DNA from: Rheinheimera sp. UJ63
Lineage (GTDB): Bacteria > Pseudomonadota > Gammaproteobacteria > Enterobacterales > Alteromonadaceae
Length of the DNA: 64,000 nt
Assembly: GCF_021568285.1 (NCBI RefSeq)
Contig: NZ_JAKGTQ010000001.1
Span: 1,240,001 to 1,304,000 of the forward strand
Direction: 5' to 3'
Below the pieces are notes generated by a model. The model had not been told where the DNA came from. It did not search any database and saw only the letters and a list, made by a program, of their open reading frames with translations. Made by a program: the position numbers and the translations under genes. Numbering within the stretch: the first letter of the stretch is position 1; every line of letters starts with the position of its first letter. Positions 7,773-25,352 of the stretch are shown piece by piece.

Positions 7773-7836
7773 ACCCTGAGTTCCTGTTTTTAACCTTGTC
7801 ACGCCGGCATTTGCCCACAGCAAAGCACCCAATTTC

Positions 7837-7881
7837 ATGTAAGCGCTTACATAAGTTAGGCCAATATCATGTAACAGTCAA
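7837..7881 (-). promoter_or_regulatory. Sigma-70 promoter with LacI-type operator for GH16-receptor operon
   Basis: On the minus strand, TTGACT (7876-7881) and TAACTT (7853-7858) are separated by exactly 17 bases. The perfect 16-bp palindrome ATGTAAGCGCTTACAT (7837-7852) abuts the -10 and would cover the transcription start. The central CG and AAGCGCTT core are typical of LacI-family operators. A repressor bound here would block initiation. The same arrangement recurs at 13201-13246 and 22336-22380. Confidence 0.85.
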
Positions 7882-9388: not shown

Positions 9389-10390
9389 CTAAACGATAAG
9401 GTGAGTGGAGTCGCGACTGATTAAATGCGGTTCAAACACTTGCTGCACCTCGGTATCCGCTTGCTGATAAACCTGACTGAGCACCCAACGTGCCGCCATA
9501 TGCCCCATTGCACTGATCGGATAATCAATGGTGGTTAATTTAGGGTAGGTGTAATAAGCAAAGTTAACGTTATCAAACCCGACAACAGAAAAATCTTCAG
9601 GAACACTATAACCTAGCTCACGCGCTGTAGTCAGTGCACCAGAGGCCATTTCATCGTTAGCACAAACCACCGCGGTAAAGGGCTGTTTGCTTGCAATGAT
9701 ACTCTGTAAGCCTTCGCTACCACCCGTTTCTCGAAAGTCGCCTTCAAAAAATAACCCGGTATTGAGCGCACAGTGAAACTCTTGTAATGCCCGCTGGTGT
9801 CCAGCATAACGCTCGCGCGCGTCCGTTTTCCACATGGGGCCAGCAATATAGGCAATCTGCCGATGCCCTTGCTCTAATAAATGCTGAGTGGCGAGATACC
9901 CACCCAATTCGTTATTTAAACTGATACAGCGATCGGCTAAGGCATCGATATGCCGGTTTAACAATACAAAAGGCGTATCACCCTGCGCCAACTCAATAAG
10001 ATAGTCGTCAGATACCGCTTCGACATGCAAAATGAGTGCGTCGCAATTGCGGCTTTTTAAAAACTCGATACCGTCTTGCTCGGTTTCACGTTCACTGTGG
10101 CCCGCAGCAATAATCACGTGCTTACCCGCAGCACGAAACTCGGCTTCAATACCAGTTAACATCGCACCATAAAAAGGGCCATGTAACTCAGAGACTAAAA
10201 TACCAATGCTGTTAGAGCGGTTAGAGGCCAATGATTGCGCAATACTATTAGGCCGATAACCTAACTCGGCCATCGCCGCCAACACTTTTGTCCGTGTGGC
10301 TTGCCGCACCGGCGTATTATTGTTCATCACGCGCGATACGGTCGCCAGCGACACACCCGCCGCTTTTGCCACTTCATAAATGGTTGCCAT
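9389..10390 (-). CDS. LacI-family transcriptional regulator
   Basis: This is a 333-residue regulator with the canonical N-terminal helix-turn-helix (MATIYEVAKAAGVSLATVSR), the hinge helix (RPNSIAQSLAS) and a periplasmic-binding-protein-like sugar sensor domain. The ATG at 10390 has AGGA at proper spacing. It sits inside the operon with GH1 and the symporters, so it would control its own expression through the operator at 13201-13216. The palindromes at 7837, 13201 and 22336 fit the operator type of this family and are probably its targets, with glucose, gentiobiose or laminaribiose as possible inducers. Repressor role and inducer are inferred; family assignment is certain. Confidence 0.95.
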   Translation of the reverse strand: MATIYEVAKAAGVSLATVSRVMNNNTPVRQATRTKVLAAMAELGYRPNSIAQSLASNRSNSIGILVSELHGPFYGAMLTGIEAEFRAAGKHVIIAAGHSERETEQDGIEFLKSRNCDALILHVEAVSDDYLIELAQGDTPFVLLNRHIDALADRCISLNNELGGYLATQHLLEQGHRQIAYIAGPMWKTDARERYAGHQRALQEFHCALNTGLFFEGDFRETGGSEGLQSIIASKQPFTAVVCANDEMASGALTTARELGYSVPEDFSVVGFDNVNFAYYTYPKLTTIDYPISAMGHMAARWVLSQVYQQADTEVQQVFEPHLISRDSTHLIV

Positions 10391-10435
10391 TTGCGTCCTA
10401 TTAGCCAAAATTTAACCTCGCTAGCTTAGCATTCG

Positions 10436-11761
10436 CTAGTGTCGAGCAGCAAGATCAGTGGCGATTTGCTGTACACGGGCATTATACAAGGTATAGCGCG
10501 TCATCACGATGGCAACTAACACCGAACAAACAGCTGGCCAGAAGGTAAAGCTAAGTAATAAGCCGTTCAGCGTTTCGGCAGATTGTACCTGATTGGCTTG
10601 ATAACCGTAAAACGCTAACAACCACCCCGCTAAAGCACCACCGACCGCCAAACCTAATTTAATAAAAAATACGATAGAGGAATACACTAAGCCGGTCACT
10701 CGAATGCCTGTTTTGTAATGACCATAATCAACCGTATCGGCCATTTTTGCCCATAATAACGGCGTAGCCATTTGCAGGAAGAAACTCCAGAAAAAGTGCA
10801 GGGCAAACGCCATTTTTACTTGCTCGGGGCTGATAAAGAAACCCAGCACACAAATCACGGCTGAAATAAGTTGCAAGCCAATATAGGCTTTTACTTTATC
10901 CACTTTAGTGGATAACCATTGCGCCATCGCCACACCGGCGATATTGCCGATCATACCCAGCGTAACAAAGGAGGTGACCAGATCGTCTCGACCTAAAAAA
11001 TATTTTACGTAATAAATCGCCAGAGTATTACGCAACACCATACCGGTTAACAAAAATAGCGCAGCAACACATAAAATACGCCACTGATCGTTTTGCCATA
11101 AAGTCGACATGCCACTGCGTAATGTTATTGTTTGATTCGCTGGCGCGTGAACTCGTTCACGAGTACCGGCAAAACAGAGTAAAAACAATATCATACCTAA
11201 CAGGCTCATGGCGGCGATGGTCCACTGATAGCCTCGCGCCTGATCGCCCTGACCAAAGTATTCTACCAGGGGTAAGGTACAGGCGGTTACTAACAACCCG
11301 CCTAACATACCAAAGATAAAACGATACGTTTGCACCGAAACGCGCTCATTTGGATCGGCCGTTAATACGCCACCCAGGGCTGAGTATGGAATGTTAATCG
11401 CGGTATAGGCCAGCATCAGCAGGGTATAAGTGGCAAAGGCGTACCAGACTTTACCGCTTTCAGAAAAATCTGGGGTGGTAAAAGCTAAAACACTACAGAA
11501 GGCGAAAGGCAACGCCAGCCAAAGTAAGTAAGGCCGATATTTACCATGTCGACTTTTAGTGTTATCGGCCAGTGCGCCCATTAACGGATCGGTCACGGCA
11601 TCAATGATCCGCACTAACAAAAACATACTGCCGACGATAGCGGGCGAAATACCGAAAATATCGGTGTAAAAAAACGTTAGAAATAACATCACTGTTTGAA
11701 AAATGATGTTACTGGCCGTGTCACCTAGGCCGTAGGCTATTTTTTCTTTTTTACTCAGCAT
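10436..11761 (-). CDS. GPH-family sugar:cation symporter
   Basis: This 441-residue protein has 12 predicted membrane segments and belongs to the glycoside-pentoside-hexuronide:cation symporter group (MelB/XynP-like). The N-terminal pattern KEKIAYGLGDTASNIIF and the loop DAVTDPLMGALADNTKSRHG are the family hallmarks. It would move small beta-glucosides such as laminaribiose or cellobiose across the inner membrane with H+ or Na+. The start is preceded by AGGAG at five bases. It lies 26 bases after the GH1 gene and 45 bases before the LacI-family gene start, in one operon. Uptake followed by GH1 cleavage in the cytoplasm is the likely pathway. Confidence 0.92.
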   Translation of the reverse strand: MLSKKEKIAYGLGDTASNIIFQTVMLFLTFFYTDIFGISPAIVGSMFLLVRIIDAVTDPLMGALADNTKSRHGKYRPYLLWLALPFAFCSVLAFTTPDFSESGKVWYAFATYTLLMLAYTAINIPYSALGGVLTADPNERVSVQTYRFIFGMLGGLLVTACTLPLVEYFGQGDQARGYQWTIAAMSLLGMILFLLCFAGTRERVHAPANQTITLRSGMSTLWQNDQWRILCVAALFLLTGMVLRNTLAIYYVKYFLGRDDLVTSFVTLGMIGNIAGVAMAQWLSTKVDKVKAYIGLQLISAVICVLGFFISPEQVKMAFALHFFWSFFLQMATPLLWAKMADTVDYGHYKTGIRVTGLVYSSIVFFIKLGLAVGGALAGWLLAFYGYQANQVQSAETLNGLLLSFTFWPAVCSVLVAIVMTRYTLYNARVQQIATDLAARH

Positions 11762-11787: not shown

Positions 11788-13119
11788 TTAACGCCGGTTA
11801 GCGAACACGTCACGTAACGCTATGGCACTATTCTTTAAGGTACGTTGTTGCGTAACATAATCAACATAAACAATACCAAAGCGTTTCGCATAGCCTTCAG
11901 CCCATTCAAAATTGTCCATCAAGCTCCAGGCGAAATAACCCTGTATATCAACACCAGCCTTGATAGCATCTTCCGTAGCTTGTAAGTGTTGCTGAAAATA
12001 ATCTACCCGATGCTGATCGGCGACTTTATCTTGCAGCAAAGTATCCGGCATGGCGGCCCCATTTTCAGTAATGTAAATGGGCGGCAACGTATAACGTTGG
12101 TGCAACGCCAGCAGAATTTCAGTTAAGCCTTTTGGATATATTTCCCAGCCCATATCCGTTAATGGCGGTGTTGTTGGTGGCACATCACTGAACCAGCCTT
12201 TTTCATTGGCCCGATAGACAGTGCGGGTGTAGTAGTTTACGCCGAGGAAATCTATTGGTTCAGCAATAATCGCCATATCACCGTCAACCATTAGTGGTTG
12301 TTCATTTGCGGCTAACTCTGCTAACAAAGGAGGGTAACAGCCTTCGAGTAGCGGTTGCAGATACCACTGATTATGGTACTGATCCGCCATCTCGGCCGCA
12401 CGCACATCGGCTGCACTGTTAGAAGCCGGGTGACACGGGCTAAAATTAAGCACAATGCCATTTTTAGCATGTGGAGCATTTTTCCGCAGTACGCGCATGG
12501 CTAACCCATGCGCTAACAACAAATGATGGGCGGCTTGTCGACCTTGTTGCCGATTTTGAAACCCTGGTGCGTGGATCCCCGCTTCATAACTGAGATAGGC
12601 ACTACAAAACGGCTCATTTAGCGTGGCATAAGAGTACACCTTATCTCCAAAAGCCTTTGTTACGATATCGGTATACTCGGCAAATTTATAAGCGGTATTC
12701 CGGTTTAACCAACCACCGTGATCTTCAAGATATTGCGGTAAATCCCAATGATAAAGTGTCACGAAAGCCTTAATATTTTTGGCTTGCAGCGCATCAAGTA
12801 ACTGCTGATAAAAAGCTAAGCCCGCTTCGTTAATACTGCCATCACGGTTAATCACCCGCCCCCAAGCAATCGAGAACCGATAGGCATCAACGCCTAAACC
12901 GGCAATCAGCTCAATATCATCACGCCAACGAGCAACATGATCACAAGCCACTTTGCCGTCGGAATTATCTTTGATCCGACCCGGCGTATCACAGAAGGTA
13001 TCCCAGATGCACGGCTCACGACTATCAGCCGCACCTTCTATCTGAAAAGAAGAGGTTGCTACGCCAAAAACAAAGTTAGGCTGCAATAAAGGAGAGGTTT
13101 TTGCTAGAGTTATCTTCAT
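11788..13119 (-). CDS. GH1 family beta-glucosidase
   Basis: This 443-residue enzyme hydrolyses beta-glucosides to glucose. The GH1 N-terminal signature FVFGVATSSFQIEGA is present, as are the acid/base motif TLNEPF (Glu near residue 163) and the nucleophile motif YITENGAA (Glu near residue 350). There is no signal peptide, so it acts in the cytoplasm on sugars brought in by the neighbouring GPH symporter. I use the ATG at 13119; a TTG four codons earlier (13131) is possible, and neither has a strong ribosome binding site. It is first gene of the four-gene minus-strand operon, under the operator at 13201-13216. Confidence 0.95.
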   Translation of the reverse strand: MKITLAKTSPLLQPNFVFGVATSSFQIEGAADSREPCIWDTFCDTPGRIKDNSDGKVACDHVARWRDDIELIAGLGVDAYRFSIAWGRVINRDGSINEAGLAFYQQLLDALQAKNIKAFVTLYHWDLPQYLEDHGGWLNRNTAYKFAEYTDIVTKAFGDKVYSYATLNEPFCSAYLSYEAGIHAPGFQNRQQGRQAAHHLLLAHGLAMRVLRKNAPHAKNGIVLNFSPCHPASNSAADVRAAEMADQYHNQWYLQPLLEGCYPPLLAELAANEQPLMVDGDMAIIAEPIDFLGVNYYTRTVYRANEKGWFSDVPPTTPPLTDMGWEIYPKGLTEILLALHQRYTLPPIYITENGAAMPDTLLQDKVADQHRVDYFQQHLQATEDAIKAGVDIQGYFAWSLMDNFEWAEGYAKRFGIVYVDYVTQQRTLKNSAIALRDVFANRR

Positions 13120-13200
13120 CAGTTCTGCCAAGGTTCGCTAAAGCCGAAAGTCGCTGCAACAATACAAAGTAGTTACTTGCAGCACGGTATTATGCTATAT

Positions 13201-13246
13201 ATGAAAGCGCTTACATCATACTAGACGGCCTAGACACTGTCGTCAA
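13201..13246 (-). promoter_or_regulatory. Promoter and operator for the GH1-symporter-LacI-MFS operon
   Basis: On the minus strand, TTGACG (13241-13246) and TAGTAT (13218-13223) are 17 bases apart. The near-palindrome ATGAAAGCGCTTACAT (13201-13216, one mismatch to the perfect copies) follows the -10 by one base. The layout matches the promoters at 7837-7881 and 22336-22380. Confidence 0.82.
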
Positions 13247-13383: not shown

Positions 13384-14349
13384 ATGCGTTTTAATTTACC
13401 TTTACTGGCTATTAGTAGCACGTTGGCGTTAGTCGCTTGCAATCAGCTACCCGAACCCAGCACGCCATCGGCCAACATCGCTTTTGCCGCGCCGGCGGGT
13501 TGGCAATTAGTCTGGCATGATGAATTTGAGGGTAAACAGCTCGATCGAAGCAAATGGACCCCAGAGCAAAATTGCTGGGGCGGCGGTAATGATGAACAAC
13601 AATGCTATACCGACCGACCAGAAAACATCATGGTAAAAGATGGCCTGTTACACCTCATCGCGCGAGCAGAAAACTTCTCCGGCCCAGATATTGTTGAAGA
13701 TGCCGCGAACTTTGATCCTAAGCGACAACGCACCTTACCTTACACATCTGGCCGCATTCGCAGCAAAGGCCAAGGTGACTGGCGTTATGGCCGCATCGAC
13801 GTCAGCGCCAAATTACCCGGCGGTCAAGGCAGTTGGCCGGCGATTTGGATGCTACCCACCGATAACGTTTATGGTGCCTGGCCGTTATCAGGCGAAATTG
13901 ACATTATGGAAGCGGTCAATCTCGGCACCCAATCAGATGAAGAAAATGCGGCAATGGGTGAGCCAGAGCGACGCATCCACGGCACTTTACATTATGGCAA
14001 ACGCGCGCCGAACAATACCTATTCTGGAGAAAGCTACAAACTACCGGCAGGCGCCAGCCCCACTGACGGCTTTAATACCTACAGCATTGAATGGGAAGAG
14101 GGAGAGATCCGCTGGTACATGAATGGTGTGCATTATGCCACCCGCACCAGTGCCGATTGGTTTACCGATGCCGCACAAATTATGCCCGGCATAGGTGAGC
14201 ATGCACCCTTTGATCAGCGTTTTCATCTTCTGTTAAATTTAGCGGTGGGCGGCAATTGGGCTGGCAACGTTAATGAAAAAGGTATCGACGCTGGCATATT
14301 CCCACAAAGCATGCAGGTTGATTTTGTCAGGGTTTATCAAAAACTTTGA
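13384..14349 (+). CDS. GH16 endo-beta-glucanase lipoprotein, single domain
   Basis: This 321-residue lipoprotein has signal peptide and lipobox LVAC (Cys19), followed by a complete GH16 domain (about residues 37-320). The catalytic signature is GEIDIMEAV. The segment EFEGKQLDRSKWTPEQNCWGG and the C-terminal VDFVRVYQ strand are typical of bacterial laminarinases. It is a paralogue of the catalytic domain at 5121-7772 but lacks the C-terminal modules, so it probably attacks shorter or soluble chains. GGAGG stands five bases before the ATG. It is transcribed alone, divergent from the GH1 operon. Confidence 0.94.
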   Translation: MRFNLPLLAISSTLALVACNQLPEPSTPSANIAFAAPAGWQLVWHDEFEGKQLDRSKWTPEQNCWGGGNDEQQCYTDRPENIMVKDGLLHLIARAENFSGPDIVEDAANFDPKRQRTLPYTSGRIRSKGQGDWRYGRIDVSAKLPGGQGSWPAIWMLPTDNVYGAWPLSGEIDIMEAVNLGTQSDEENAAMGEPERRIHGTLHYGKRAPNNTYSGESYKLPAGASPTDGFNTYSIEWEEGEIRWYMNGVHYATRTSADWFTDAAQIMPGIGEHAPFDQRFHLLLNLAVGGNWAGNVNEKGIDAGIFPQSMQVDFVRVYQKL

Positions 14350-14360
14350 TTAACAAAACA

Positions 14361-14395
14361 AAAAGCCGCTACAGACGACTGTAGCGGCTTTTTTT
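14361..14395. terminator. Bidirectional terminator between GH16 and halogenase operon
   Basis: The stem AAAAGCCGCTACAG / CTGTAGCGGCTTTT with loop ACGA is flanked by T-rich runs on both strands. It serves the GH16 gene (plus) and the last gene of the halogenase operon (minus). Confidence 0.92.
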
Positions 14396-14405
14396 AAGAT
14401 TAGCG

Positions 14406-15896
14406 TTATTTACTCATCGCGGGGCAATAGCTTTGTAAAAACGTCTGATGACTGGGTAATTGCGCCACTAACCGCTGATTTTGCACTTTGATTTGGTTGA
14501 GGAAATGACTCAGTTCCTCTTCACTCATTTGATCCACTATCGGATGATAGTGTTCTGGCAGCAAACCTTGGCCCAACATCACTTGCGTCCATGAGTTCTC
14601 ACCAAATAACTCGTTCGGCACTTTAAATACTCGGCCCGTTTCTTTGAACAAACGAATACGATGGGCAAGGGATTCAGGAATAGGCATGCTTTGACAGTGT
14701 CGCCAAAATGCCGTGTCGCGCCGCGCCGTCACATAGTAGTGCAAAATAATAAAATCACGAATATTCAGCACTTCATGTTCAGTTTGCTGATTAAACTCAT
14801 CAACATCTGCTTGGCTGACGCCATTAACTGGGAACATTTGTAACAAACGCACGATACTGCGTTGAACCAAGTGAATACTGGTCGACTCTAGCGGCTCAAG
14901 AAAACCACTGGCCAAACCCAAGGCGATACAGTTTTTATTCCAGTGCTTACGGCGCATGCCGGTTTTGAATTTGATTAGTCGAGGTTCGGTCAGTAACTCA
15001 CCATTGACATTGGCCAGCAACAACGCTTTTGCCTCATCATCTGAATAATACTTACTGCAATACACTAAACCATTACCGACTCGATGTTGTAGCGGTATTT
15101 GCCACTGCCAGCCAGCACCATGCGCGATGGAGCGGGTATATGGCACCGGCTCACGCGTGGCACGGGTTTGCACCGCAATCGCCGAATCACAAGGCAACCA
15201 GTGGCTCCAATCATCAAAGCCGGTATGTAAAGTTTGCTCAATTAACAGTGCGCGAAAGCCTGTACAATCAATAAATAAATCGCCAGCAATGCGCTCACCG
15301 TTCGTCATCTGTAACGCTGTAATATTGCCACTTTGCTCACAGGTTTCAACTTTAGCAATTTTACCTTCAATCCGCGTTGCACCATGTTTCTCAGCCATAG
15401 TCCGTAAAAACTTTGCATATAAACCGGCATCGAAATGAAAAGCGTAATTTAGGGAACGATTCGGCAAATGCGCAAACTTTGCCGCTTTTGACGCCAATAA
15501 CTCCGGGCAATAATCGCCGTAATCACTGGCTAAGCCGATTTGCTGACCTTTTAACCAGAAATGCTGAAAGCCCGCCGCCCAGCAATCTTGGCCAGTGGTT
15601 CCAAAGGAGTGAATGTAGTCTTGGCCTTGATCACGCCAGTTTTCAAATTGAATACCCAGTTTAAAAGTGGCTTGGGTGGCAGCCATAAATTCTGCTTCGT
15701 TGATACCCAGTAGCTTATGCAGCGTCAATAACGGGGGTATGGTCGCTTCTCCCACCCCCACAGTACCGATATCTTCACTCTCGACTAAACAAATTTCAAA
15801 ATGTTTACCCATTAACTTGGCGATAGCGGCTGCCGCCATCCAACCAGCGGTTCCACCACCGGCAATCACCACGCGTTTAATTGCTTGCGACTGCAT
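14406..15896 (-). CDS. Flavin-dependent halogenase-like protein (tryptophan halogenase family), copy B
   Basis: This 496-residue protein belongs to the tryptophan halogenase family. The FADH2 fold begins with VVIAGGGTAGWMAA. The lysine thought to hold the hypohalous acid or haloamine is present (TFKLGIQF, Lys79, the same number as in PrnA). The family motif WxWxIP is intact (WQWQIP). The true substrate is unknown. In the literature, related proteins next to TonB receptors (for example BrvH of Brevundimonas) brominate indole in vitro, but their natural substrates are not settled. GAGG lies five bases before the ATG. It is the last gene of the receptor - halogenase - SapC - cupin operon, 13 bases after the cupin gene. 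There is no signal peptide, so it is cytoplasmic. Confidence 0.88.
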   Translation of the reverse strand: MQSQAIKRVVIAGGGTAGWMAAAAIAKLMGKHFEICLVESEDIGTVGVGEATIPPLLTLHKLLGINEAEFMAATQATFKLGIQFENWRDQGQDYIHSFGTTGQDCWAAGFQHFWLKGQQIGLASDYGDYCPELLASKAAKFAHLPNRSLNYAFHFDAGLYAKFLRTMAEKHGATRIEGKIAKVETCEQSGNITALQMTNGERIAGDLFIDCTGFRALLIEQTLHTGFDDWSHWLPCDSAIAVQTRATREPVPYTRSIAHGAGWQWQIPLQHRVGNGLVYCSKYYSDDEAKALLLANVNGELLTEPRLIKFKTGMRRKHWNKNCIALGLASGFLEPLESTSIHLVQRSIVRLLQMFPVNGVSQADVDEFNQQTEHEVLNIRDFIILHYYVTARRDTAFWRHCQSMPIPESLAHRIRLFKETGRVFKVPNELFGENSWTQVMLGQGLLPEHYHPIVDQMSEEELSHFLNQIKVQNQRLVAQLPSHQTFLQSYCPAMSK

Positions 15897-15909
15897 TTGG
15901 ACCTCGTTG

Positions 15910-16908
15910 TTATCGGTTAAGTTTATTTAACAGTTCAGCACGCACTTGCCGTGCCACAGGCTCAGTTAATGAACCTTGCAAACCACGTAAATGTTCAGGA
16001 ATATGCGCAATTTGTCCTTCACCAAACACATAATGCTCAAAGTGTGCACGCCATGCCGCCTTTTGCTCTGCCGGTAAAGTGTTAATACTCAGCATCGCCA
16101 GCTGCAATGCCAGTTGTGGACTGGGCAAATAACTAGGGCAGTCGCGCCACCAAAAATTCATCAGTACATTGAGCGAGCTTAGCGCTTCTACATGATGCCA
16201 CCACATACTGGGAATAATGAGCGCATCACCAGGACCAAGTTCTACCACTTGCGCATGTTTCATCGCTTCGGCGAATTTGGGAAATTGTGTCAGATCGGGG
16301 TTGGTAAAATCGACCAAACTAATCGCTCGGCCTGCAGGCGAAACATCCAGCGGGCCAATGTACAAATTGGCTAATTGTTCAGGTGGAAACAAGGTGAAAC
16401 GTCGACGCCCAGCCACTACCACCGCCAAATTTTGCGGAAGATCAGAGTGTGCCGCTACACGACTTTGATTGCCAATCCATAAGCTGACCAGCGGATCTTT
16501 GCCCTGTTGCGCCAACGCCGGCACGTGTTGTTGTTGCAACCACTGCGGAAACCAACGCGGTACCAAAGTAGCACCAACATACCAGTGCGCTTTATCCTGT
16601 GATGCCGCTAACAATTGCCCAAGTTTGGCATTTACCGGCTGAAAGTTAAAACCACTAAAATTAGTATTGTAAAATACTCGGCCACCACTACTCGCTTCGC
16701 TAATATAAGCAGTCAGTGGTTCACCACTATAGTGGCTGAGCAAATAATCATTAATGGCGGGCTGCCCTTGTTTAGCCGCACAAACTGCAGGCCAGTGCGC
16801 AGCAAAATCAGGCAAGTGCAGCGGTATAGCGCTATTCAGTACATCACTGCTGATGCTATCCGCGGTTACGCCGGTTAAGCTTGCTACCGGTTGCGCTGCA
16901 GGCCACAT
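15910..16908 (-). CDS. Cupin_8/JmjC-like Fe(II)/2-oxoglutarate oxygenase candidate
   Basis: This 332-residue protein is of the cupin_8 (JmjC-like) type. The iron-binding triad is readable: HSD (His154, Asp156) and a distal His (WWHHVEAL, His238 or 239). The conserved GPGDALIIPSMWWH turn is present. Family members hydroxylate proteins or small molecules. I start at the ATG at 16908, which leaves one base after the SapC stop, implying translational coupling; an upstream TTG would overlap SapC by 35 bases. It lies between SapC and the second halogenase. The substrate is unknown and may be shared with the halogenases. Confidence 0.8.
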   Translation of the reverse strand: MWPAAQPVASLTGVTADSISSDVLNSAIPLHLPDFAAHWPAVCAAKQGQPAINDYLLSHYSGEPLTAYISEASSGGRVFYNTNFSGFNFQPVNAKLGQLLAASQDKAHWYVGATLVPRWFPQWLQQQHVPALAQQGKDPLVSLWIGNQSRVAAHSDLPQNLAVVVAGRRRFTLFPPEQLANLYIGPLDVSPAGRAISLVDFTNPDLTQFPKFAEAMKHAQVVELGPGDALIIPSMWWHHVEALSSLNVLMNFWWRDCPSYLPSPQLALQLAMLSINTLPAEQKAAWRAHFEHYVFGEGQIAHIPEHLRGLQGSLTEPVARQVRAELLNKLNR

Positions 16909-16909
16909 C

Positions 16910-17617
16910 TTAGTTGCTTGCCAACAGCTGATTCTTAAAACCAATCAACCGCGCAAACTGTGCTTGCGAAGCCAGCATCATGTAAATGGCCTCTAAGTAT
17001 CCCGCCTGCTGTAACTGCAACAATTGCTCGCCGCTCAGTTGCGCTAACCGTGGCTCGTTAATCGTATAGAAACCATGCAAACTGTGCTGCTGGCCATTAT
17101 TTAACGTAACATCCAGTACAAAAGACTCAATCAACTCCAGTGCCAATAGTTGCTGCGTAAAGGCCTTAGCGTCGGTAACGCCATGATGCAAAGTCTCTAA
17201 TTGTGCCGCCACTTGCTGCAAATAAGACGTTTGACCACCAAACTCTAAAAACAACGGCTCACCCGAAGCGCTATTGACTCTCGGATGTGAGGTATCGATA
17301 TTGATCACGCGCTCACCCTGTTGCAGGCCAATGGTAAAAGGCTCACGAAGGATATCTAGCGGCACATAACCCGCTTGCCATCCTTGCTGCTGCAAAAATA
17401 GGTTTTCACCCGATTGAAAACCGAGCAGTAACACCGGCATAAATTGGCCGCTTTGGCCGTCTTTATAAAATAAGACGGGGTAATAGGCTTGGGCAGCGCG
17501 GAATTCAGCTGGAAAACTCAAACAAAACATTTTGTTATCGCCAAGCTCTAGGCTGCGCTCAGTAAGGATTTTCACACCAAGATGGTCAACGTTATTGAGT
17601 AATTCGATAGTAGCCAT
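16910..17617 (-). CDS. SapC-like protein
   Basis: This 235-residue protein resembles the SapC family (PF07277), named after a Campylobacter S-layer-associated protein and widespread in Proteobacteria beside TonB receptors and halogenase-like genes. Recognisable features are the N-terminal LCLSFPAEFRAAQAYYPVLF, the central GYVPLDILREPFTIG and the terminal YxxxASQAQFARLI. There is no signal peptide or membrane helix. No biochemical function is established. The ATG at 17617 has a strong GGGGAG upstream and follows the halogenase gene by 10 bases; a longer frame would overlap it. Confidence 0.82.
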   Translation of the reverse strand: MATIELLNNVDHLGVKILTERSLELGDNKMFCLSFPAEFRAAQAYYPVLFYKDGQSGQFMPVLLLGFQSGENLFLQQQGWQAGYVPLDILREPFTIGLQQGERVINIDTSHPRVNSASGEPLFLEFGGQTSYLQQVAAQLETLHHGVTDAKAFTQQLLALELIESFVLDVTLNNGQQHSLHGFYTINEPRLAQLSGEQLLQLQQAGYLEAIYMMLASQAQFARLIGFKNQLLASN

Positions 17618-17627
17618 CGGCTCCCCT

Positions 17628-19235
17628 TTAAATCTTTTGTAAGCCATGAGCTTTAATTTGGTTTAATAATTCGCGATTACTGACCAAGCCCGCTCTGAGT
17701 TGTTGTGTTTTTTGTTGTACTTCGGCAAACGCTTGGTTAGCACGTAATCCTAAGCTTGCCTTTATTGGCCGCTCACTACTAGGTAAATGTCGCATGCCAT
17801 ACAAAATATACTGGTAACTGGCAGCCGGAAACAATTCTTCAGCCATCGGTAAATCATAACGACTTGGCACAAATTGTTGCCACATCATCAACTTTTCTTG
17901 CAGTGACGAAGGTATCGAGTTGTCGGCACGCTGGGCCAGCCAATAATCGCTATCATCACGTGTTGACAACACATAATGCAACTTTAAAAACTCGACGATT
18001 TGTTGCCAACGATAGCTAAAGGTTTGATTAAAGCGCTCAGCGATCACGGCCTGTTGTGCCAAACTGCGTGGCAATTGCTCGCTAATAAACTTGGCTGATA
18101 ACTCAACCATCACCAAGGCTGACGCTTCCAGCGGTTCAATAAAGCCTGCCGCCATGCCGACTGCCACACAATTGTGCCGCCAAAACTGTTGGCGATAGCC
18201 CGGCGTAAACCGAATAAGCCTCGGCTGGTAGCGGGCTGTAAATGCCTGCTCTGATAATTGCAGGTACTGCGCAAGCGTGCTGACCGCCTGATCCTCGCCG
18301 GTATGACCACTGTGATGCACAAAACCGACACCGCGACGGGTCGGTAAGCCGATATCCCATACCCAACCTTGTGATTGGGCAGTGGCCAAGGTTGCAGAGG
18401 CAATTGGCGTGCGTTCATCGTCGTAAGGCACTTGCACTGCCAAGGCACTGTCGTTTAACAAACAGTTTTGCACACTGACCAGGGGGGTTTGATAGTGCTG
18501 GCCGATAAGTAAACTCTGTAACCCCGAGCAGTCCACAAATAGATCACCGGTTAAAGCACCATGCTCAGCAGTTTGTAACGCCGCCACACGGCCATCTGTG
18601 TGGCTTTGCACAGCAACAACATCATCCACAATATGCTTCACCCCAAGCCGTTTGGCATGCTGGCTTAGTAAGGCAACAAACTTTGCCGCATTGAGGTGAT
18701 AGCCATAATTTTGTAAGAAGGCATATTCTGGAGTCGCGATGCGTTTAGGGGCTAAACCCGCAGCAATCACGGCAGGCTGGCTAGATACGGCAGCGGCAAA
18801 CTCGACTTGCTGATGATGACTAAACCAAAAGTCAGCAATATCTAGCTCATTGGCCGCTACTGGCGGCGTAAAAGGATGGTAATAACAATCTTGCGGCGAT
18901 GAGCTACGCCATTGGCGAAACACACTGCCTTGTTTAAAGCTGGCATCGCAGCTGAGAATAAATTCTGTTTCAGAAATTCCAATTCGCGCTAATGTCGCGC
19001 GCATTGAAGGCCAAGTCCCCTCACCAACACCAATGGTGGGCACAGAGGCAGACTCGATCAAACTGATATTTACATGTGGGTCTGTTTGATGATCTGCAGC
19101 TAAGATAGCGGCAGTAAGCCAACCCGCACTACCACCACCGACAACCACAACATCCACCTGCCCTTTAACAAAAGGCTGTTTATTTTCAGTGGTTGCTGGT
19201 TTATCCGTTGCGAGTAACTCGTTTGCTTGCATCAT
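17628..19235 (-). CDS. Flavin-dependent halogenase-like protein (tryptophan halogenase family), copy A
   Basis: This 535-residue tryptophan-halogenase-family protein carries the FAD motif VVVGGGSAGWLTAA and the catalytic-type lysine (SFKQGSVF, Lys101). The WxWxIP motif is altered to WVWDIG, so the proline position is glycine. It is clearly a paralogue of copy B, but diverged, and carries a 25-residue hydrophilic N-terminal extension before the flavin fold. It is the first gene after the receptor, separated from it by a hairpin with a T-run. Whether both copies are active halogenases or form a pair is unknown; a role as a non-halogenating flavoprotein is possible. Confidence 0.87.
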   Translation of the reverse strand: MMQANELLATDKPATTENKQPFVKGQVDVVVVGGGSAGWLTAAILAADHQTDPHVNISLIESASVPTIGVGEGTWPSMRATLARIGISETEFILSCDASFKQGSVFRQWRSSSPQDCYYHPFTPPVAANELDIADFWFSHHQQVEFAAAVSSQPAVIAAGLAPKRIATPEYAFLQNYGYHLNAAKFVALLSQHAKRLGVKHIVDDVVAVQSHTDGRVAALQTAEHGALTGDLFVDCSGLQSLLIGQHYQTPLVSVQNCLLNDSALAVQVPYDDERTPIASATLATAQSQGWVWDIGLPTRRGVGFVHHSGHTGEDQAVSTLAQYLQLSEQAFTARYQPRLIRFTPGYRQQFWRHNCVAVGMAAGFIEPLEASALVMVELSAKFISEQLPRSLAQQAVIAERFNQTFSYRWQQIVEFLKLHYVLSTRDDSDYWLAQRADNSIPSSLQEKLMMWQQFVPSRYDLPMAEELFPAASYQYILYGMRHLPSSERPIKASLGLRANQAFAEVQQKTQQLRAGLVSNRELLNQIKAHGLQKI

Positions 19236-19247
19236 AACTACTTCTTG

Positions 19248-19277
19248 TAAAAAGTAGCCATCTTACGATGGCTACTT
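19248..19277 (-). terminator. Attenuating hairpin between receptor and halogenase genes
   Basis: An 11-bp perfect stem (AAGTAGCCATC / GATGGCTACTT) with a four-base loop is followed on the minus strand by TTT. It lies 20 bases after the receptor stop and just before the halogenase start. No separate promoter is evident for the downstream genes. It probably works as a partial terminator that keeps receptor mRNA above halogenase mRNA. Confidence 0.72.
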
Positions 19278-19296
19278 ATTTCAGGACAACAACATC

Positions 19297-22254
19297 TTAG
19301 AACGAATAACGCGCACCGATGGCAAAACGACGACCTGTTTCAGTATAATTCACTAATTGCAGTGTATTACGTTCATGAGAACGTACCGACTCGTCAGTTA
19401 AGTTAATGGCTTCAATAAAGAACGTTAAGTTCTCGGTATAATCATAGCTGGCACTCGCATCCCACTGTCCATAAGCTTCAACGTAAATAGGGTTTTGCAA
19501 ACCTAAAGTATTCACTGTGGAGGCAAGGAACTTGTCACGCCAGTTATAGGCAATACGCGCTTGGAAACCGTCTTTATCGTAGAACCCCACTAAGTTATAG
19601 GTGTCGCTCATACCGAGCAACGCAAACTGCTCGCCACGGCTAAAGTTGTCATACTCAAAGTCACCATCAACTAAGGTGGCGTTAGCAATTACACCAAAGC
19701 CGGTCTCGCCAAATAGGTGCTGAACCGCTAACTCCCAACCATTTAACTTAGCGTCATCTTGGTTAACCGGAATGGTTATATCAAAGGTGGCTGGCGTATC
19801 ACCTGGCACACCTAAGATAAAGCCGTTTGCATCAACCGTATTAGGGTAATTGGTTCTGATGTAGTTACGGATCGCTGAAGGATTATTGCCAACTGCAGCA
19901 ACGGCTTCAGCATAACGTGGGCCTTGCGCTGGGTGCGGTAAGTTAAAGGTTTGTTCTTCTACAATCGTTCTACCGATAAAGTTCTTGGCTTTTTTGGTGA
20001 AGTAACCCACCGCCATATAACTGCCTTCACCGTAGTACCACTCTAAAGATAAGTCTAGGTTGGTAGACTCAAACGGGTCTAAGCCAGGGTTACCACGTGC
20101 TCCGGTACCACCGTCAATCCGCACTAAAGAATTAATGGTTTGACCGCCTTGAATATCGGCATAACTTGGACGCGCCAGTGTTTTACTGACCGAGGCACGG
20201 AAAATCACGTCCTCAACGACTTCGATATTAAAGTCGATATTAGGTAATACATTACTGTACTCACCAGTTAAATTTGTAAAGTCACTTTCACCGGTACTGA
20301 TCAAGTTGAACTCATTGTCAGCCGCCCAAGCAATACCACTGTAAACAGGTACTAAGGCACTTGAGGTGACATCAGTTTTTTCGTAACGCACACCTGCGGT
20401 TAAACCATAAAACCGCTCGCCAATTTCACCGGAGAAATTAAGCTGTACATAGGCTGCTTTTTGCTCTTCCGTAGTGCGGCGGTCCGTGGTCATGTTAGAT
20501 GATGCACAGAACGACGTACCGCAATCACCTACTGCACCTAAAGCACCGTATTTATCATTGGCAATTTGACGAATGGTATTAAAGTCCCAACGGAAGAACT
20601 CTTTTAACATATCGCTGCTGGTAGAAGCGTTGAAGTTATCGCCTAACTGGTCAAGCTTGAACACTGACGGGTCGATATCACCCGCTGCACCTAAACCACC
20701 CCAGTTATCCTGTTGCACGTTAGAGAACGCTGAACGGTTTTTGGTTTCAGAGCTTGTTACACCGAAGTCGATGCTGTTTAAGATGCCATCGTCAAACGTA
20801 TAGTTACCGCGAAGTTGCAGTTGGTCGATATCACTGCGCATTTGGCTATTGCGGAATGAGCTACCGGTCACGCGCATATCTTCACCGCGAATACCGGTAA
20901 AGCCAGCAGGATAACCAATGGCTAAAGTGGGCAAGTCGGTGTCAAAACGTGCGGTAGTTAGAGTACGCACGAAAGTCGCCATACCAATAACGTTGTTGCT
21001 ACCAAAGGGGCTATTGGGGCTCGAATCAGCTGACGAGTTATGATAGTCCAACTCTAGTTTCAAGTTGTCATTCACTTGCCAATTGGCATTGAAGCCTAAA
21101 GATTTATTCTCGTTTACGGTTGAGAACTGTCCGCCGCCCATGGCTAAATCGCCCGGCGCACCAAAGGCTTCAGAATAGACGATCGGTGCTGCTACTGGGC
21201 CATCGCTCCATACACCTGACGAAGGGCCGAAGTTAAACCAAGCAGACACGTCATTGTAACGATCTGATACTTCGTTTTTTGAATAAGTGAAATCTAAAGT
21301 TGTTCTAACGGCTTCAATGGGTTGATATTGTAAAACCAATTGGCCATTAGTACGGGTTCTTTCCACTTCATGGAAGGCAAAGCCTAAGCTTTGTGGCACT
21401 GAGTAAATAGAGTCTGCAGATGGATAATTTTCAATAGCATTAGGGCTAGCAGGACATAATCCACCCCAATCCGCATTACCAACATTACAATCGCCACCAG
21501 TTACAAAGCCAGGATAGGTACGCCAACCACCGCTATTAGCTTGCTTGTTACCACTATCACGCTGTTGGTATGAGCCGCTGATGGCCACACCAAATTTATC
21601 GTCATCGAAAGTGTTGCTATATAAACCTGATAACTCCGGCGTAATGCTGGCGCCTTCATCAGTAGATTGATCCATTACACCTTTAATACCAAAGCTGGCT
21701 TTCTCGCCTGGGGCATTTAATGGCTTGGTCGTTAAAATATTAATGGTTGAGCCCATACCACCAGTAGCGATACTGGCTCGGCCTGTTTTATACACTTCAA
21801 CGCCAGCAATACCTTCAGAGGCAATATTGGCAAAATCGAACGAACGAGAAGATGATGCTGACGTTGCTTCCAGTGATGAAGCAGGCATTTGCCGGCCGTT
21901 TAGCATAACGAGGTTAAAGTCTGGCCCAAAACCGCGCACCGTAACACGGCTACCTTCACCGTTTGAACGGTCAATCGCCACACCGGTGATCCGTTGCAGT
22001 GATTCTGCAAGGTTAGTGTCTGGAAATTTACCAATATCTTCCGCAGAGATGGCATCAACCACGCCCACAGAGCTTCGTTTCACATCCATCGACTTAACTA
22101 AACTGCCACGAATGCCTGAAACTTGAATTATTTCTATATCACTGTTTTCGTCCGCAGCGGCTTCTTGCGCGAAACCAGGTGCCATCATGCCGGCGCCTGT
22201 GATCAGTGACAAACTCATCGCTATGCGCGACAGCTTGAAACGTGTTTGATTCAT
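19297..22254 (-). CDS. TonB-dependent receptor (halogenase-operon receptor 2)
   Basis: This is a 985-residue outer-membrane receptor. Signal peptide MNQTRFKLSRIAMSLSL precedes the TonB box-like IEIIQVSGIRGSL. The plug follows (LAESLQRITGVAIDRS, VTVRGFGPDFN), then a long barrel ending in IGARYSF. The plug is very close to that of the receptor at 2150-5095 while the barrels differ, suggesting duplication and ligand divergence. The ATG at 22254 is preceded by GGGAG at six bases. It is first gene of the halogenase/SapC/cupin operon and is controlled by the operator at 22336-22351. The ligand could be a glucan oligomer or a product of the modification cassette. Confidence 0.92.
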   Translation of the reverse strand: MNQTRFKLSRIAMSLSLITGAGMMAPGFAQEAAADENSDIEIIQVSGIRGSLVKSMDVKRSSVGVVDAISAEDIGKFPDTNLAESLQRITGVAIDRSNGEGSRVTVRGFGPDFNLVMLNGRQMPASSLEATSASSSRSFDFANIASEGIAGVEVYKTGRASIATGGMGSTINILTTKPLNAPGEKASFGIKGVMDQSTDEGASITPELSGLYSNTFDDDKFGVAISGSYQQRDSGNKQANSGGWRTYPGFVTGGDCNVGNADWGGLCPASPNAIENYPSADSIYSVPQSLGFAFHEVERTRTNGQLVLQYQPIEAVRTTLDFTYSKNEVSDRYNDVSAWFNFGPSSGVWSDGPVAAPIVYSEAFGAPGDLAMGGGQFSTVNENKSLGFNANWQVNDNLKLELDYHNSSADSSPNSPFGSNNVIGMATFVRTLTTARFDTDLPTLAIGYPAGFTGIRGEDMRVTGSSFRNSQMRSDIDQLQLRGNYTFDDGILNSIDFGVTSSETKNRSAFSNVQQDNWGGLGAAGDIDPSVFKLDQLGDNFNASTSSDMLKEFFRWDFNTIRQIANDKYGALGAVGDCGTSFCASSNMTTDRRTTEEQKAAYVQLNFSGEIGERFYGLTAGVRYEKTDVTSSALVPVYSGIAWAADNEFNLISTGESDFTNLTGEYSNVLPNIDFNIEVVEDVIFRASVSKTLARPSYADIQGGQTINSLVRIDGGTGARGNPGLDPFESTNLDLSLEWYYGEGSYMAVGYFTKKAKNFIGRTIVEEQTFNLPHPAQGPRYAEAVAAVGNNPSAIRNYIRTNYPNTVDANGFILGVPGDTPATFDITIPVNQDDAKLNGWELAVQHLFGETGFGVIANATLVDGDFEYDNFSRGEQFALLGMSDTYNLVGFYDKDGFQARIAYNWRDKFLASTVNTLGLQNPIYVEAYGQWDASASYDYTENLTFFIEAINLTDESVRSHERNTLQLVNYTETGRRFAIGARYSF

Positions 22255-22335: not shown

Positions 22336-22380
22336 ATGTAAGCGCTTACACAAGTTAGTTGATTAACATTTCGCCGTCAA
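22336..22380 (-). promoter_or_regulatory. Promoter and operator for the receptor-halogenase operon
   Basis: On the minus strand, TTGACG (22375-22380), a 17-base spacer and TAACTT (22352-22357) are followed directly by GTGTAAGCGCTTACAT. The perfect 14-bp palindrome is at 22337-22350. The architecture is identical to that at 7837-7881. Confidence 0.84.
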
Positions 22381-22831: not shown

Positions 22832-23644
22832 ATGAATAGGTTACTTTTTATTCTATCTCTGTTTGTTTCTGTATGTTTTATACCTAAACTCACTGCTGCT
22901 CCCATCCCGCTAGATCTCTCTGTTACTGCTTCTAATAGCTTTGCCAGTGATTCCATTCCCGGTTTCGGAGCTGTAAATCACAATAGTACTTTATCTATCC
23001 TGCTGGGTGGCGTGTTAAGCCAGTCAACGGTTATTGATACTGCAGTTACTGGGGGTAATCCGCTAACAGGCCAGTTAACGACCCTAGATGATGGTATTGC
23101 TATCAACACGAATCTTTTAGCTGGGGCAGATAGTTTAGCTGAAGGCTATTTTTTTGATTTTAATTTTGCGTTGCAAAACAATTCACTAACCAATGCTTAT
23201 TTACTGTCATTCGTGTTGTTGTTCGACAACTTAACCTCAGCGTCAGGTCTTGATGCTTTTGCTGAATCGAAAATCTTATTATTCGATGACAGTAACAATG
23301 AGTTTTTCTTCTCTGATCTAGCAACAGATACCCTATTCGGCGATCAAAAAAACGGTACTTTTACCGGCACTTCTGGTGTAACTCAAAGCGACAATGGCAG
23401 CTTTGGGTTTGATATCTTGCTGGGCGCCGGGGCAGCTAGCAGTTTTAGAGGAGAGCTACAGTTAGTTGGTCAGGAATTTATTAATTCAGGTAGCTTTGCA
23501 GCTAATAGCTTCGCTAACGTTTCACTTTCTGCTGTACGCTCTTTAAATACCCCTCCACAACAAGTCCCATTGCCAGCAACAGGCTGGTTGTTTTTACTGG
23601 GTTTGTTTTTTCTTGCTCAACGTCAATTAAGGAAACTACCATGA
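22832..23644 (+). CDS. Exported protein with VPLPA-CTERM-like sorting signal
   Basis: This 270-residue protein has an N-terminal signal peptide (MNRLLFILSLFVSVCFIP) and a C-terminal tripartite signal: VPLPATGW, a hydrophobic helix, and a basic tail QRQLRKLP. This is the pattern of PEP-CTERM/VPLPA-CTERM proteins, which are processed by an exosortase and often accompany exopolysaccharide. The middle is a Ser/Asn/Gly/Leu-rich beta-type region, not assigned to a family. No exosortase gene is in the window. The stop overlaps the next start (ATGA), so the gene is coupled to the tail-collar gene. Confidence 0.78.
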   Translation: MNRLLFILSLFVSVCFIPKLTAAPIPLDLSVTASNSFASDSIPGFGAVNHNSTLSILLGGVLSQSTVIDTAVTGGNPLTGQLTTLDDGIAINTNLLAGADSLAEGYFFDFNFALQNNSLTNAYLLSFVLLFDNLTSASGLDAFAESKILLFDDSNNEFFFSDLATDTLFGDQKNGTFTGTSGVTQSDNGSFGFDILLGAGAASSFRGELQLVGQEFINSGSFAANSFANVSLSAVRSLNTPPQQVPLPATGWLFLLGLFFLAQRQLRKLP

Positions 23645-24342
23645 AAATTCAATGTATCGCCTTAGCAGCAACCCTTGCTGTAAGCGCATCAGTAGTATCC
23701 ACCAAGGCTAATGCTTGCGGTTATGAGCCAATGCTGGGATCAATGTGTGTATTTGCCGGCAACTTTGCCCCACGTGGCTTTGCGTTAGCTCAGGGCCAAT
23801 TACTGGCTATAAGCCAAAACACAGCATTGTTCTCCCTGTTAGGCACGACATACGGCGGTGATGGACGGACGACTTTTGCTCTGCCAGATACCCGTGGCCG
23901 GGCGCTGATAGGGGCCGGCAATGGGCCAGGTTTAAGCAGTATGCAATTGGGGCAAAGAGGTGGACAAGAAACGGTTACTTTAACGCTTGGACATTTGCCG
24001 CAGCACAACCACACTGCGAGCACGACGGTGCAGTTGTTGAGTATGGATAGCTCTGCCAGCACCGCAGTATTAAAAGGCTTAGCGGCAACATCAAATTCGA
24101 ACACGCCTACTGGCAAAGTGTTAGCAAATAGCCCTGGGCGCGATAATATTTATAATGATGGCGCACCCAATGTAGAGCTAAACCCTGAGTCGATTGCGCT
24201 TAACATAAACTTGGATATGCTATTTGAAAGTACCACTACAGTGGATGTTGCCGGTGGTAGTCAGCCGTTAAACGTACGCGACCCTTATCTGGCAATTAAC
24301 TGGATTATCGCACTACAAGGTATATTTCCATCACGCAACTAA
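23641..24342 (+). CDS. Exported tail-collar domain protein (microcystin-dependent-protein-like)
   Basis: This 233-residue protein carries a cleavable signal peptide (about residues 1-25). A phage tail collar domain follows (about 33-95) with the conserved pattern FAPRGFALAQGQLLAISQNT, LLGTTYGGDGRTTFALPDTR and GRALIGAG. A histidine-containing LPQHNHT segment follows. Proteins of this family occur outside phages as secreted or surface proteins of unknown function. No phage genes are nearby, so this is not a prophage remnant. It is translationally coupled to the upstream sorting-signal protein and five bases from the Sel1 gene. Confidence 0.82.
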   Translation: MKIQCIALAATLAVSASVVSTKANACGYEPMLGSMCVFAGNFAPRGFALAQGQLLAISQNTALFSLLGTTYGGDGRTTFALPDTRGRALIGAGNGPGLSSMQLGQRGGQETVTLTLGHLPQHNHTASTTVQLLSMDSSASTAVLKGLAATSNSNTPTGKVLANSPGRDNIYNDGAPNVELNPESIALNINLDMLFESTTTVDVAGGSQPLNVRDPYLAINWIIALQGIFPSRN

Positions 24343-24347
24343 TACCT

Positions 24348-25352
24348 ATGCTGCTAAAAAACGCTTTACTACTTATATTTTTCACTTCAGTGAGTGTAAC
24401 TGCAGCAACAGAAAAAGATTGGTCAGCGCCTTTGCATAGCGCGCAGTTATTGCTCGAAGCAGGTGACTACACTTCTGCGCGCCCGCTCTTTACAGAGCAG
24501 GCGCAGCGGGGCAATGGCCTAGCACAATTTACCCTTGGTCTATTTTATCAATTGGGTTGGGGCGTTAATGTATCACCAAAACAAAGCTGCGATTGGTTTA
24601 GACTGGCGGCCGAAAATCAGATCCCGGTGGCACAGGAGCAATTGGGTTATTGTTATTGGCATGACCATTTTGCCACAGCAGAGCAGCGCTTGGCGTTTCG
24701 CTGGTTTGAACAAGCTTATCAAGCAGGCGTTCTCTCTGCTGGCTGTGCAATGGGTAAACTGCTGGTTGAGGGAAAATACGTAGCGCCAGATCTCTATAAA
24801 GGCGTGCAGTTATGTCAACAGGCAGCAGTCGCTGGCGCAACAGCGGCTCAGTTGCAACTGGCAAAATGGCTACTTGAAGGCCAAGTGCTACAGCAAGATG
24901 CTACCCAGGCTATGTATTGGTTTGACCAAGCGGCAAATAACCACAATGCGGAAGCGGCTTATTATCTGGCACAATTTTATGATACAGGAACAGTTGCCCC
25001 GCAAGACACTCAGCAGGCATTGCAGTGGTATCATACTGCTGCCAAAGCCGGAGTAGTTGCAGCCTATCTGCCGACTGCAGCTTTATATTTTGCACAATAT
25101 CAAACAGCAGCCGAGCAGCAACAAACTGAACAATTGGCCAAGCATAAAGCCACACTGTTGGCCCAAGCTTATGTATGGGCCTTTGCTGCGATACAACAGT
25201 TGCCACCTGCCCATCAAAATTATACTCAAGCGAATACCTTACTTAAGCACATCAGCTTATTTATTTCTCCTAGCGGGCAAGAGGTGCTGCAGCTAAAAAC
25301 GCGAGAACAGTTAAAAAAAGTGCAGCCTATTACCTTGCATCTATCAGAGTAA
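24348..25352 (+). CDS. Sel1-repeat (TPR-like) exported protein
   Basis: This 334-residue protein has a signal peptide (MLLKNALLLIFFTSVSVTAA) and about five Sel1-like repeats of 36-38 residues, for example GNGLAQFTLGLFYQLGWGV, AAENQIPVAQEQLGYCYW and NAEAAYYLAQFYDTGTVAPQ. Such solenoids mediate protein-protein contacts in the periplasm. It is the third gene of the cluster with the VPLPA-CTERM-like and tail-collar proteins and may act as their assembly partner; that role is inferred from position only. Confidence 0.85.
   Translation: MLLKNALLLIFFTSVSVTAATEKDWSAPLHSAQLLLEAGDYTSARPLFTEQAQRGNGLAQFTLGLFYQLGWGVNVSPKQSCDWFRLAAENQIPVAQEQLGYCYWHDHFATAEQRLAFRWFEQAYQAGVLSAGCAMGKLLVEGKYVAPDLYKGVQLCQQAAVAGATAAQLQLAKWLLEGQVLQQDATQAMYWFDQAANNHNAEAAYYLAQFYDTGTVAPQDTQQALQWYHTAAKAGVVAAYLPTAALYFAQYQTAAEQQQTEQLAKHKATLLAQAYVWAFAAIQQLPPAHQNYTQANTLLKHISLFISPSGQEVLQLKTREQLKKVQPITLHLSE

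Follow-up and report, generated by a model that had tools for sequence, protein, structure and literature searches.

Among the closest described relatives of the enzymes considered here are the flavin-dependent halogenases (FDHs) Xcc4156 (6y1w) and BrvH (6frl). In the excerpts of the two reports drawn on here, structures and model substrates are given for these enzymes, and no natural substrate or regulation (PMC7336383, PMC5945002). In vitro, both brominate free indole and indole derivatives (PMC7336383). According to the same excerpts, Xcc4156 does not halogenate free tryptophan and lacks the long substrate-binding loops of enzymes that do; its site is open and may accept 'possibly even peptides' (PMC7336383). 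A similar argument is made for the open site of BrvH, which does not act on free tryptophan and whose gene is preceded by a second FDH gene (PMC5945002). A serine at the halide site is described as a feature of BrvH (PMC7336383), and RebH, PrnA and PyrH are named as free-tryptophan halogenases (PMC7336383, PMC5945002). Neither TonB nor SapC is mentioned in either report (PMC7336383, PMC5945002).

LacI/TonB-receptor carbohydrate loci of Proteobacteria combine a regulator, a transporter, hydrolases and a receptor with one operator. The locus described here shares this layout, but adds enzymes with no evident catabolic role. It lies in a 64,000-nucleotide stretch of the Rheinheimera sp. UJ63 genome (the window; Table 1). 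Genes for a TonB-dependent receptor, an FDH-like protein (FDH-I), a SapC protein, a Cupin_8 protein and a second FDH (FDH-II) follow one another on the minus strand, separated by only 61, 10, 1 and 13 bases, and form a single tight operon. Open reading frames (ORFs), family profiles and gaps confirm the original prediction on this point, which had placed two halogenase-like genes, a SapC gene and a Cupin_8-type gene in one operon behind a TonB receptor. By eye, a signal peptide is evident in the receptor alone. No flavin reductase was found among the operon's genes, either as an ORF or by family profile. A predicted terminator closes the operon; its stem is the longest listed for the region (the runner-up has 8 pairs), while terminator-like sites as a class show no excess over shuffled sequence (11 versus 11.6) and promoter-like sites are no more frequent than chance predicts (16 versus 14.2). 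Between 5121 and 14349 lie the large GH16 gene, two MFS transporter genes, the LacI regulator gene, GH1 and a second GH16. On the other side, upstream of the receptor and divergent from it, 22832-25352 encodes a protein whose end is PEP-CTERM-like by eye, one with a phage tail collar domain and one with Sel1 repeats.

Table 1. Features of the cassette operon and the surrounding glucan genes (window coordinates), with examples of DUF6445 genes at other loci
Feature	Position	Strand	Remarks
GH3 gene, 3' part	13-1599	+	MFS-GH3 operon begins left of the window, behind a one-mismatch operator
Large GH16 protein	5121-7838	-	PF00722, 64 bits; real start probably internal to the ORF
Operator TGTAAGCGCTTACA, exact	7838-7851	.	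Upstream of large GH16 gene
LacI-family regulator, presumed operator reader	9389-10408	-	PF00356 LacI, 75.7 bits; Peripla_BP_3, 125.8 bits
MFS_2-type sugar transporter, adjoining regulator	10436-11761	-	PF13347, 331 bits
GH1 beta-glucosidase	11788-13131	-	TIGR03356, 605 bits
Operator TGTAAGCGCTTACA, one mismatch	13202-13215	.	Between GH1 and GH16
GH16 glucanase-type protein, convergent with cassette	13384-14349	+	PF00722
Stem-loop, predicted terminator	14360-14393		Between operon and convergent GH16 gene; 15-pair stem and T tail
FDH-II, flavin-dependent halogenase, Xcc4156/BrvH type	14406-15896	-	PF04820 Trp_halogenase, 643 bits; WQWQIP / EPLESTS
Cupin_8, putative Fe(II)/2-oxoglutarate oxygenase	15910-16908	-	206 bits; triad H154, D156, H238
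SapC (PF07277), cassette-type clade	16910-17617	-	226 bits (cut-off 28.9)
FDH-I, flavin-dependent halogenase-like	17628-19235	-	PF04820 Trp_halogenase, 396 bits; WxWDIG / EPLEAS motif class
TonB-dependent receptor	19297-22254	-	TIGR01782 (TonB-Xanth-Caul), 643 bits; Plug and barrel Pfam; first gene of operon; ATG at 22254
Predicted LacI-type operator TGTAAGCGCTTACA, exact	22337-22350	.	Upstream of receptor operon
DUF6445 (examples)	L017:13195-13938; L018:13285-14007; L061:6732-7427		Ten more loci

The two halogenase-type proteins belong to different motif classes. The best solved match to FDH-II is Xcc4156 (696 bits), in an alignment that spans residues 4-494 and has a single gap position; 9luq and BrvH follow. 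The GxGxxG motif, catalytic lysine, WxWxIP motif and catalytic glutamate are all present (as GGGTAGW, K79, WQWQIP and EPLEST), and EPLESTS has serine at the second halide-site residue, where Xcc4156 and BrvH have Ser/Asn instead of Gly. As with BrvH, a second FDH gene accompanies it. The closest solved chain to FDH-I is 2pyx (558 bits), a structural-genomics 'tryptophan halogenase' that shares its WxWDIG and EPLEAS motifs; cassette FDH-I differs from it in its company, as SapC accompanies it in 24 of 26 clusters (see below). FDH-I retains GxGxxG and the catalytic lysine and glutamate, but its WVWDIG departs from WxWxIP and an alanine replaces the serine after the glutamate. It is filed in PF04820 by profile, and its halogenase activity is putative. 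Across the aligned proteins of the FDH-I class, the residue after WxWDI is G, S or A, and the one after the glutamate is alanine; L007 departs from both rules, with P after WxWDI. The FDH-II class has WxWxIP with five exceptions (L077, L082, L106, L144 and L147). Both halogenases match phrog_2928 in PHROGs.

The departures seen in the FDH-I class raise the alternative that FDH-I at least is a flavin monooxygenase of protein tryptophan, similar to QhpG, and that the module oxidises rather than halogenates. QhpG, LodB and GoxB are flavoproteins that modify protein tryptophan, and QhpG is the best NCBIfam match of FDH-I (E 3.9e-11), although its 42.5 bits are far below the 240-bit cut-off. All three belong to the same flavoprotein superfamily as the FDHs, but as profiles they match weakly and far below their cut-offs, and general flavoproteins (lycopene cyclase, ThiO) score similarly. 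Moreover, of 60 aligned FDH-type proteins exceeding 430 residues, 57 keep the catalytic lysine and glutamate of halogenases, and the other three (L060, L131 and one of the two in L137) are distant proteins. FDH-II retains both WxWxIP and the BrvH-like halide-site serine (PMC7336383). We consider oxidation in place of halogenation distinctly unlikely. The proteins of L060 (3802-6177) and L131 (14251-16629) are 790 residues long, have arginine at the position of the catalytic lysine, and are encoded 3-4 kb from a stand-alone SapC gene in two genomes of one genus.

The remaining enzyme of the operon, Cupin_8, has FIH (E=3e-21) and JMJD5 as its nearest solved relatives. The match to these protein hydroxylases is around the HxD...H triad, which is invariant in 16/16 Cupin_8 sequences. 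Cupin_8 differs from them in being bacterial and operon-borne, and in an invariant arginine where FIH has Lys214. For SapC, residues H12, E38, P47, G66, N72, W80, P86, P93, G119, G127 and L162 are invariant across 26 sequences. Its profile gave only chance-level matches against the PDB, with no solved relative, and an AlphaFold model from a 10-sequence alignment was too poor for use (mean pLDDT 41). Viral contigs scanned with the SapC alignment yielded no relative, and PHROGs gave no match for SapC or Cupin_8. A further family, DUF6445 (PF20043), occurs in 13 copies among the loci examined, every one in an FDH-bearing locus; the window's cassette is without it. H120, D122, H212 and R230 are invariant in the 11 aligned copies, an HxD...H...R pattern, and DUF6445 reads as an occasional cassette member and a second putative 2-oxoglutarate oxygenase. 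Its profile, too, matched PDB entries only at chance level.

To see how these families are distributed, we compared halogenase genes across genomes. The family is present in all 18 genomes of the order, with up to 15 halogenase-type genes per genome; full-length genes number 15 in G286 and 12 in G294. Of 107 halogenase matches, 95 were kept (12 at or below 178 bits were dropped), and these make up 64 clusters. A TIGR01782 receptor gene lies upstream, on the same strand and within 4.5 kb, for 42 of 46 halogenase clusters in 15 genomes, where about 0.004 per cluster would be expected, and in 34 of these 42 it is within 489 bp. The reverse does not hold: 67 of the 109 TIGR01782 receptors in the 15 genomes have no halogenase cluster behind them, so receptors can work without one. 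One of the four misses is in the Rheinheimera genome itself (L007:5412-10941, C11), where a TonB receptor of another type, an intervening gene and an FDH-I-like halogenase with WxWDIP stand in a row; the intervening gene matches Sulfotransfer_1 below the cut-off (E 0.05-0.07). For the other three (L205, L210 and L214), no receptor was found in front with a custom receptor profile. The same genome also has a receptor followed by FDH-II alone (L006:8836-13125, C1), with amylase and GH77 genes nearby and palindromes TGCATACGTATGCA and TGAATACGTATTCA upstream.

Cluster composition is nested. Among the 44 of 64 clusters examined in DNA, every Cupin_8 gene is accompanied by SapC (17/17), as are 24 of 26 FDH-I genes and 18 of 32 FDH-II genes, and a receptor stands in front of 41 of 44 by the custom profile. 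The 20 clusters outside this count are mostly ones with no listed SapC. Across all 59 FDH loci, six near-copies of the window excluded, the corresponding figures are 26/26, 31/33 and 29/44, but these are inflated because many loci were selected for SapC, and the 44-cluster set is the fairer one. The receptor count for the larger set (45/59) is too low, as the 5-kb limit missed receptors seen otherwise.

The same comparison was made starting from SapC; of 299 genomes sampled from the phylum, 111 carry it. We took 100 stretches from the upper part of the SapC match list (not at random, and with the Rheinheimera genome and some short-contig matches omitted). Within 3.6 kb and on the same strand, 18 SapC genes have FDH, Cupin_8 and receptor, six have FDH and receptor, two have FDH only (one of them at a contig end) and one has a receptor only. 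SapC as a universal marker of the cassette was therefore rejected: 73 of the 100 have none of these partners in that range. On the SapC tree, 31 cassette sequences form one clade (support 100/99), ten of them being the window and its relatives L010-L018, and four GH20-associated cassette sequences form a second (support 100/92). The cassette label requires 4 changes on this tree versus 31.2 in shuffles, and 0 of 500 shuffles were as low, with the stray single-neighbour sequences L088 and L131 counted as cassette. Most sampled SapC genes are of a stand-alone type. The second SapC gene of the Rheinheimera genome (L009:9716-10450, C1:745767) is one of this type; its neighbours are coaD and a transporter gene (both named by eye), with no halogenase or receptor near.

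The window's cassette is preceded by a predicted LacI-type operator. With at most one mismatch, it occurs five times in the 3.84-Mb genome, and four of these sites fall within C1:1237715-1262350 (∼24.6 kb), preceding MFS-GH3, GH16, GH1/GH16 and the cassette receptor; at the MFS-GH3 site, the divergent neighbour is a kinase-like gene (by eye). Base composition predicts 0.68 sites per genome, and a reversed-pattern control gave none. The Poisson probability of four sites in 24.7 kb is ∼1.6e-11, for a stretch that was picked post hoc. When three mismatches are allowed, the window has 5 sites versus 4.67 expected, which is chance level, and hence only close matches count. The fifth site, TGTAACCGCTTACA at L008:8215-8228 (C11:841215), lies ∼29 bp upstream of an ORF whose domains are of the NTP_transferase and GLGC types, a possible link of the same or another LacI protein to glycogen storage.

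The operator is kept in relatives. All seven related loci that span the region (L010, L012-L015, L017 and L018) have it before the cassette receptor with at most one mismatch. Over the wider set of loci that carry it, the nearest operator begins 46-121 bp ahead of the chosen receptor start codon (113 bp in L072), with the exception of L102, where the nearest site with at most one mismatch is 316 bp off and a two-mismatch site is at 115 bp. Since each transcription unit has the same operator and relatives retain it, the cassette and the glucan hydrolase genes can be assigned to one predicted LacI regulon. The claim that the cassette's promoter carries the operator of the glucan hydrolase operons is thus borne out by sites in the window, the genome and the relatives.

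Beyond this group, the picture changes. The question had been raised whether the four families co-occur with the operator; the families do co-occur, but of 24 sampled loci where SapC, FDH and receptor are all present, 9 have the operator (at most one mismatch). Because it is missing from the other 15, the regulation described here is that of one group. Other palindromes were seen upstream at some of these 15 loci, namely TGACAACGCTGTCA in L077, L108 and L135 and TGACAGCGTTGTCA in L082, which we take to be of the NagR type. GH20 hexosaminidase genes are near L077, L082 and L108, and also near L144, where the NagR-like palindrome is absent. Relatives of GH1, GH3, GH16 or MFS are found in the stretch at 8 of 9 operator loci versus 5 of 15 others.

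Taken together, the operator clustering, the label test on the SapC tree and the 42 of 46 receptor-led clusters reject a chance linkage of the families. Similar sets do lie beside TonB receptors elsewhere, as had been claimed, and the receptor-led clusters, the 44-cluster composition and the SapC tree agree in this respect.

We then looked at the genes around cassettes. At 27 cassette loci, 108 of the 134 nearest other ORFs (four per locus) include, among the top 25 of 115 families, LacI (10), DUF6445 (9), GH3 (8), MFS_1 (6), GH20 (4), GH16 (4) and Sulfotransfer_3 (3). For 27 stand-alone SapC loci, 81 of 135 neighbours (three per locus, very long ORFs skipped) included none of the cassette-neighbour families among their top 25 of 96. 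Several relatives are plasmid-borne. A Sphingobium sp. RAC03 plasmid has receptor, SapC, cupin, halogenase, GH16, LacI, MFS and GH3 genes consecutively; a Sphingomonas sp. R1 plasmid has LacI and MFS, then GH3, receptor, SapC and halogenase; and a Catenovulum adriaticum plasmid has receptor, halogenase and SapC between beta-galactosidase and agarase. The sugar genes thus differ between sets (GH1/GH3/GH16, GH20, amylase/GH77 or agarase/beta-galactosidase), and a glucan-only role was rejected, as the same kinds of enzyme stand beside all of these. The proposed tie to polysaccharide sensing holds insofar as these are sugar loci, but it is not specific to glucan. Because the accompanying sugar genes vary, the constant partner is the receptor, and the sets adjoining GH20, amylase/GH77 and agarase genes point to coupling with whichever sugar receptor precedes the set. 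It is very probable, in our judgement, that the operon is a receptor-linked tailoring module within a LacI-controlled sugar-utilisation locus, its regulation being a prediction.

Co-location with several kinds of sugar locus, and the plasmid-borne relatives, would also fit an accessory trait. In that case the set would be carried along by the regulation of sugar loci and retained in them because those are the conditions under which it pays, and its role would concern neither receptor nor sugar; the production of hypohalous acid against competitors is one example. Such hitch-hiking seems very unlikely to us, as the receptor-led clusters place the set directly behind a receptor and their nested composition argues for a function tied to it.

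A further alternative concerns the kind of substrate. The module could modify a small molecule that enters with the polysaccharide or signals its presence, such as an indole or an aromatic compound from algae or plants, yielding a halogenated metabolite or a detoxified compound. The receptor could import such a substrate, free-tryptophan halogenases of the RebH, PrnA and PyrH type are relatives, and the in vitro activity of Xcc4156 and BrvH on free indoles points the same way (PMC7336383). Yet these enzymes are found at loci for different sugars, and with the sugars differing and the module constant, an aromatic ligand becomes less likely. No recurrent biosynthetic family was found among the top 25 of 115 families of the 108 cassette neighbours. 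The number of such enzymes per genome also speaks against a small molecule; to our knowledge, 15 in one genome is unlike any metabolite pathway. We regard this alternative as fairly unlikely.

By eye, none of the enzymes has a signal peptide; a cytoplasmic substrate is therefore expected, either a protein before export or an imported compound. Tailoring of a protein fits most of the parts, given FDHs with an open site for which peptides have been suggested, an FIH-like neighbour and, occasionally, DUF6445 or a sulfotransferase. The weak, below-cut-off profile matches to the protein-tryptophan enzymes QhpG, LodB and GoxB lean in this direction too, although general flavoproteins score alongside them. 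The receptors were searched for a target residue. Comparison of 55 paired with 28 unpaired receptors revealed no residue, among those present in at least 60% of paired sequences, with p <1e-6, in a test weakened by at least four 'unpaired' receptors that have FDH or SapC near. Tryptophan content was 12.4 per protein in paired versus 13.0 in unpaired receptors. Two tryptophan columns lean to paired receptors, uncorrected for multiple tests: W274 (24/55 versus 2/28) and W350 (48/55 versus 15/28). Distances among FDH-I proteins do not track those among receptors (rho 0.24, permutation maximum 0.38; -0.1 within genomes, 16 pairs). For FDH-II the correlation is higher (0.54 versus 0.28 in permutations; 0.31 within genomes, 26 pairs), and co-inheritance can explain this co-variation too. 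The missing receptor signature, the 67 receptors with no cluster, the failure of FDH-I to co-vary and the lack of a flavin reductase in the operon all count against a protein target.

With these points weighed, the reading that we tentatively prefer, at somewhat less than even confidence, is a cytoplasmic module, induced by sugar, whose enzymes modify the side chains of proteins, perhaps those of the receptor or a co-exported protein. When beta-glucan is absent, the LacI-family regulator would repress the GH3, GH16, GH1 and receptor operons. An oligosaccharide would relieve this repression, and receptor and tailoring enzymes would be produced together in the cytoplasm. There, FDH-I/SapC/Cupin_8 and FDH-II may halogenate or oxidise side chains of the new receptor or a co-exported protein before export, which is the least certain step. 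The residues concerned could be tryptophan and, for the FIH-like Cupin_8, Asn/His/Arg-type residues. SapC might present the substrate to FDH-I and Cupin_8, although this is a guess. The full version of this scheme, an inducible receptor-tailoring system with one or more peptidyl-tryptophan halogenases or oxygenases, FIH-like and DUF6445 hydroxylases, sometimes a sulfotransferase, and SapC as adaptor, is more doubtful. We know of no report of post-translational modification of TonB receptors or co-exported proteins by such a system.

The original prediction had called this an undescribed system. That applies to the composite module, within the literature searched, but not to the enzymes: all the families were known already, and receptors paired with halogenases can be seen in public annotation. 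Neither the composition rules nor the operator nor the connection with DUF6445 turned up in that literature. Among open-licence PMC papers, none was found that joins halogenase with SapC, tryptophan halogenase with TonB-dependent and SapC, or tryptophan halogenase with polysaccharide utilization.

These results place relatives of Xcc4156 and BrvH in receptor operons under sugar-type operators, and so narrow the search for their natural substrates. If proteins are the targets, nutrient receptors would be subject to regulated modification by halogenation. If they are not, a halogenated, sugar-linked metabolite would await discovery.
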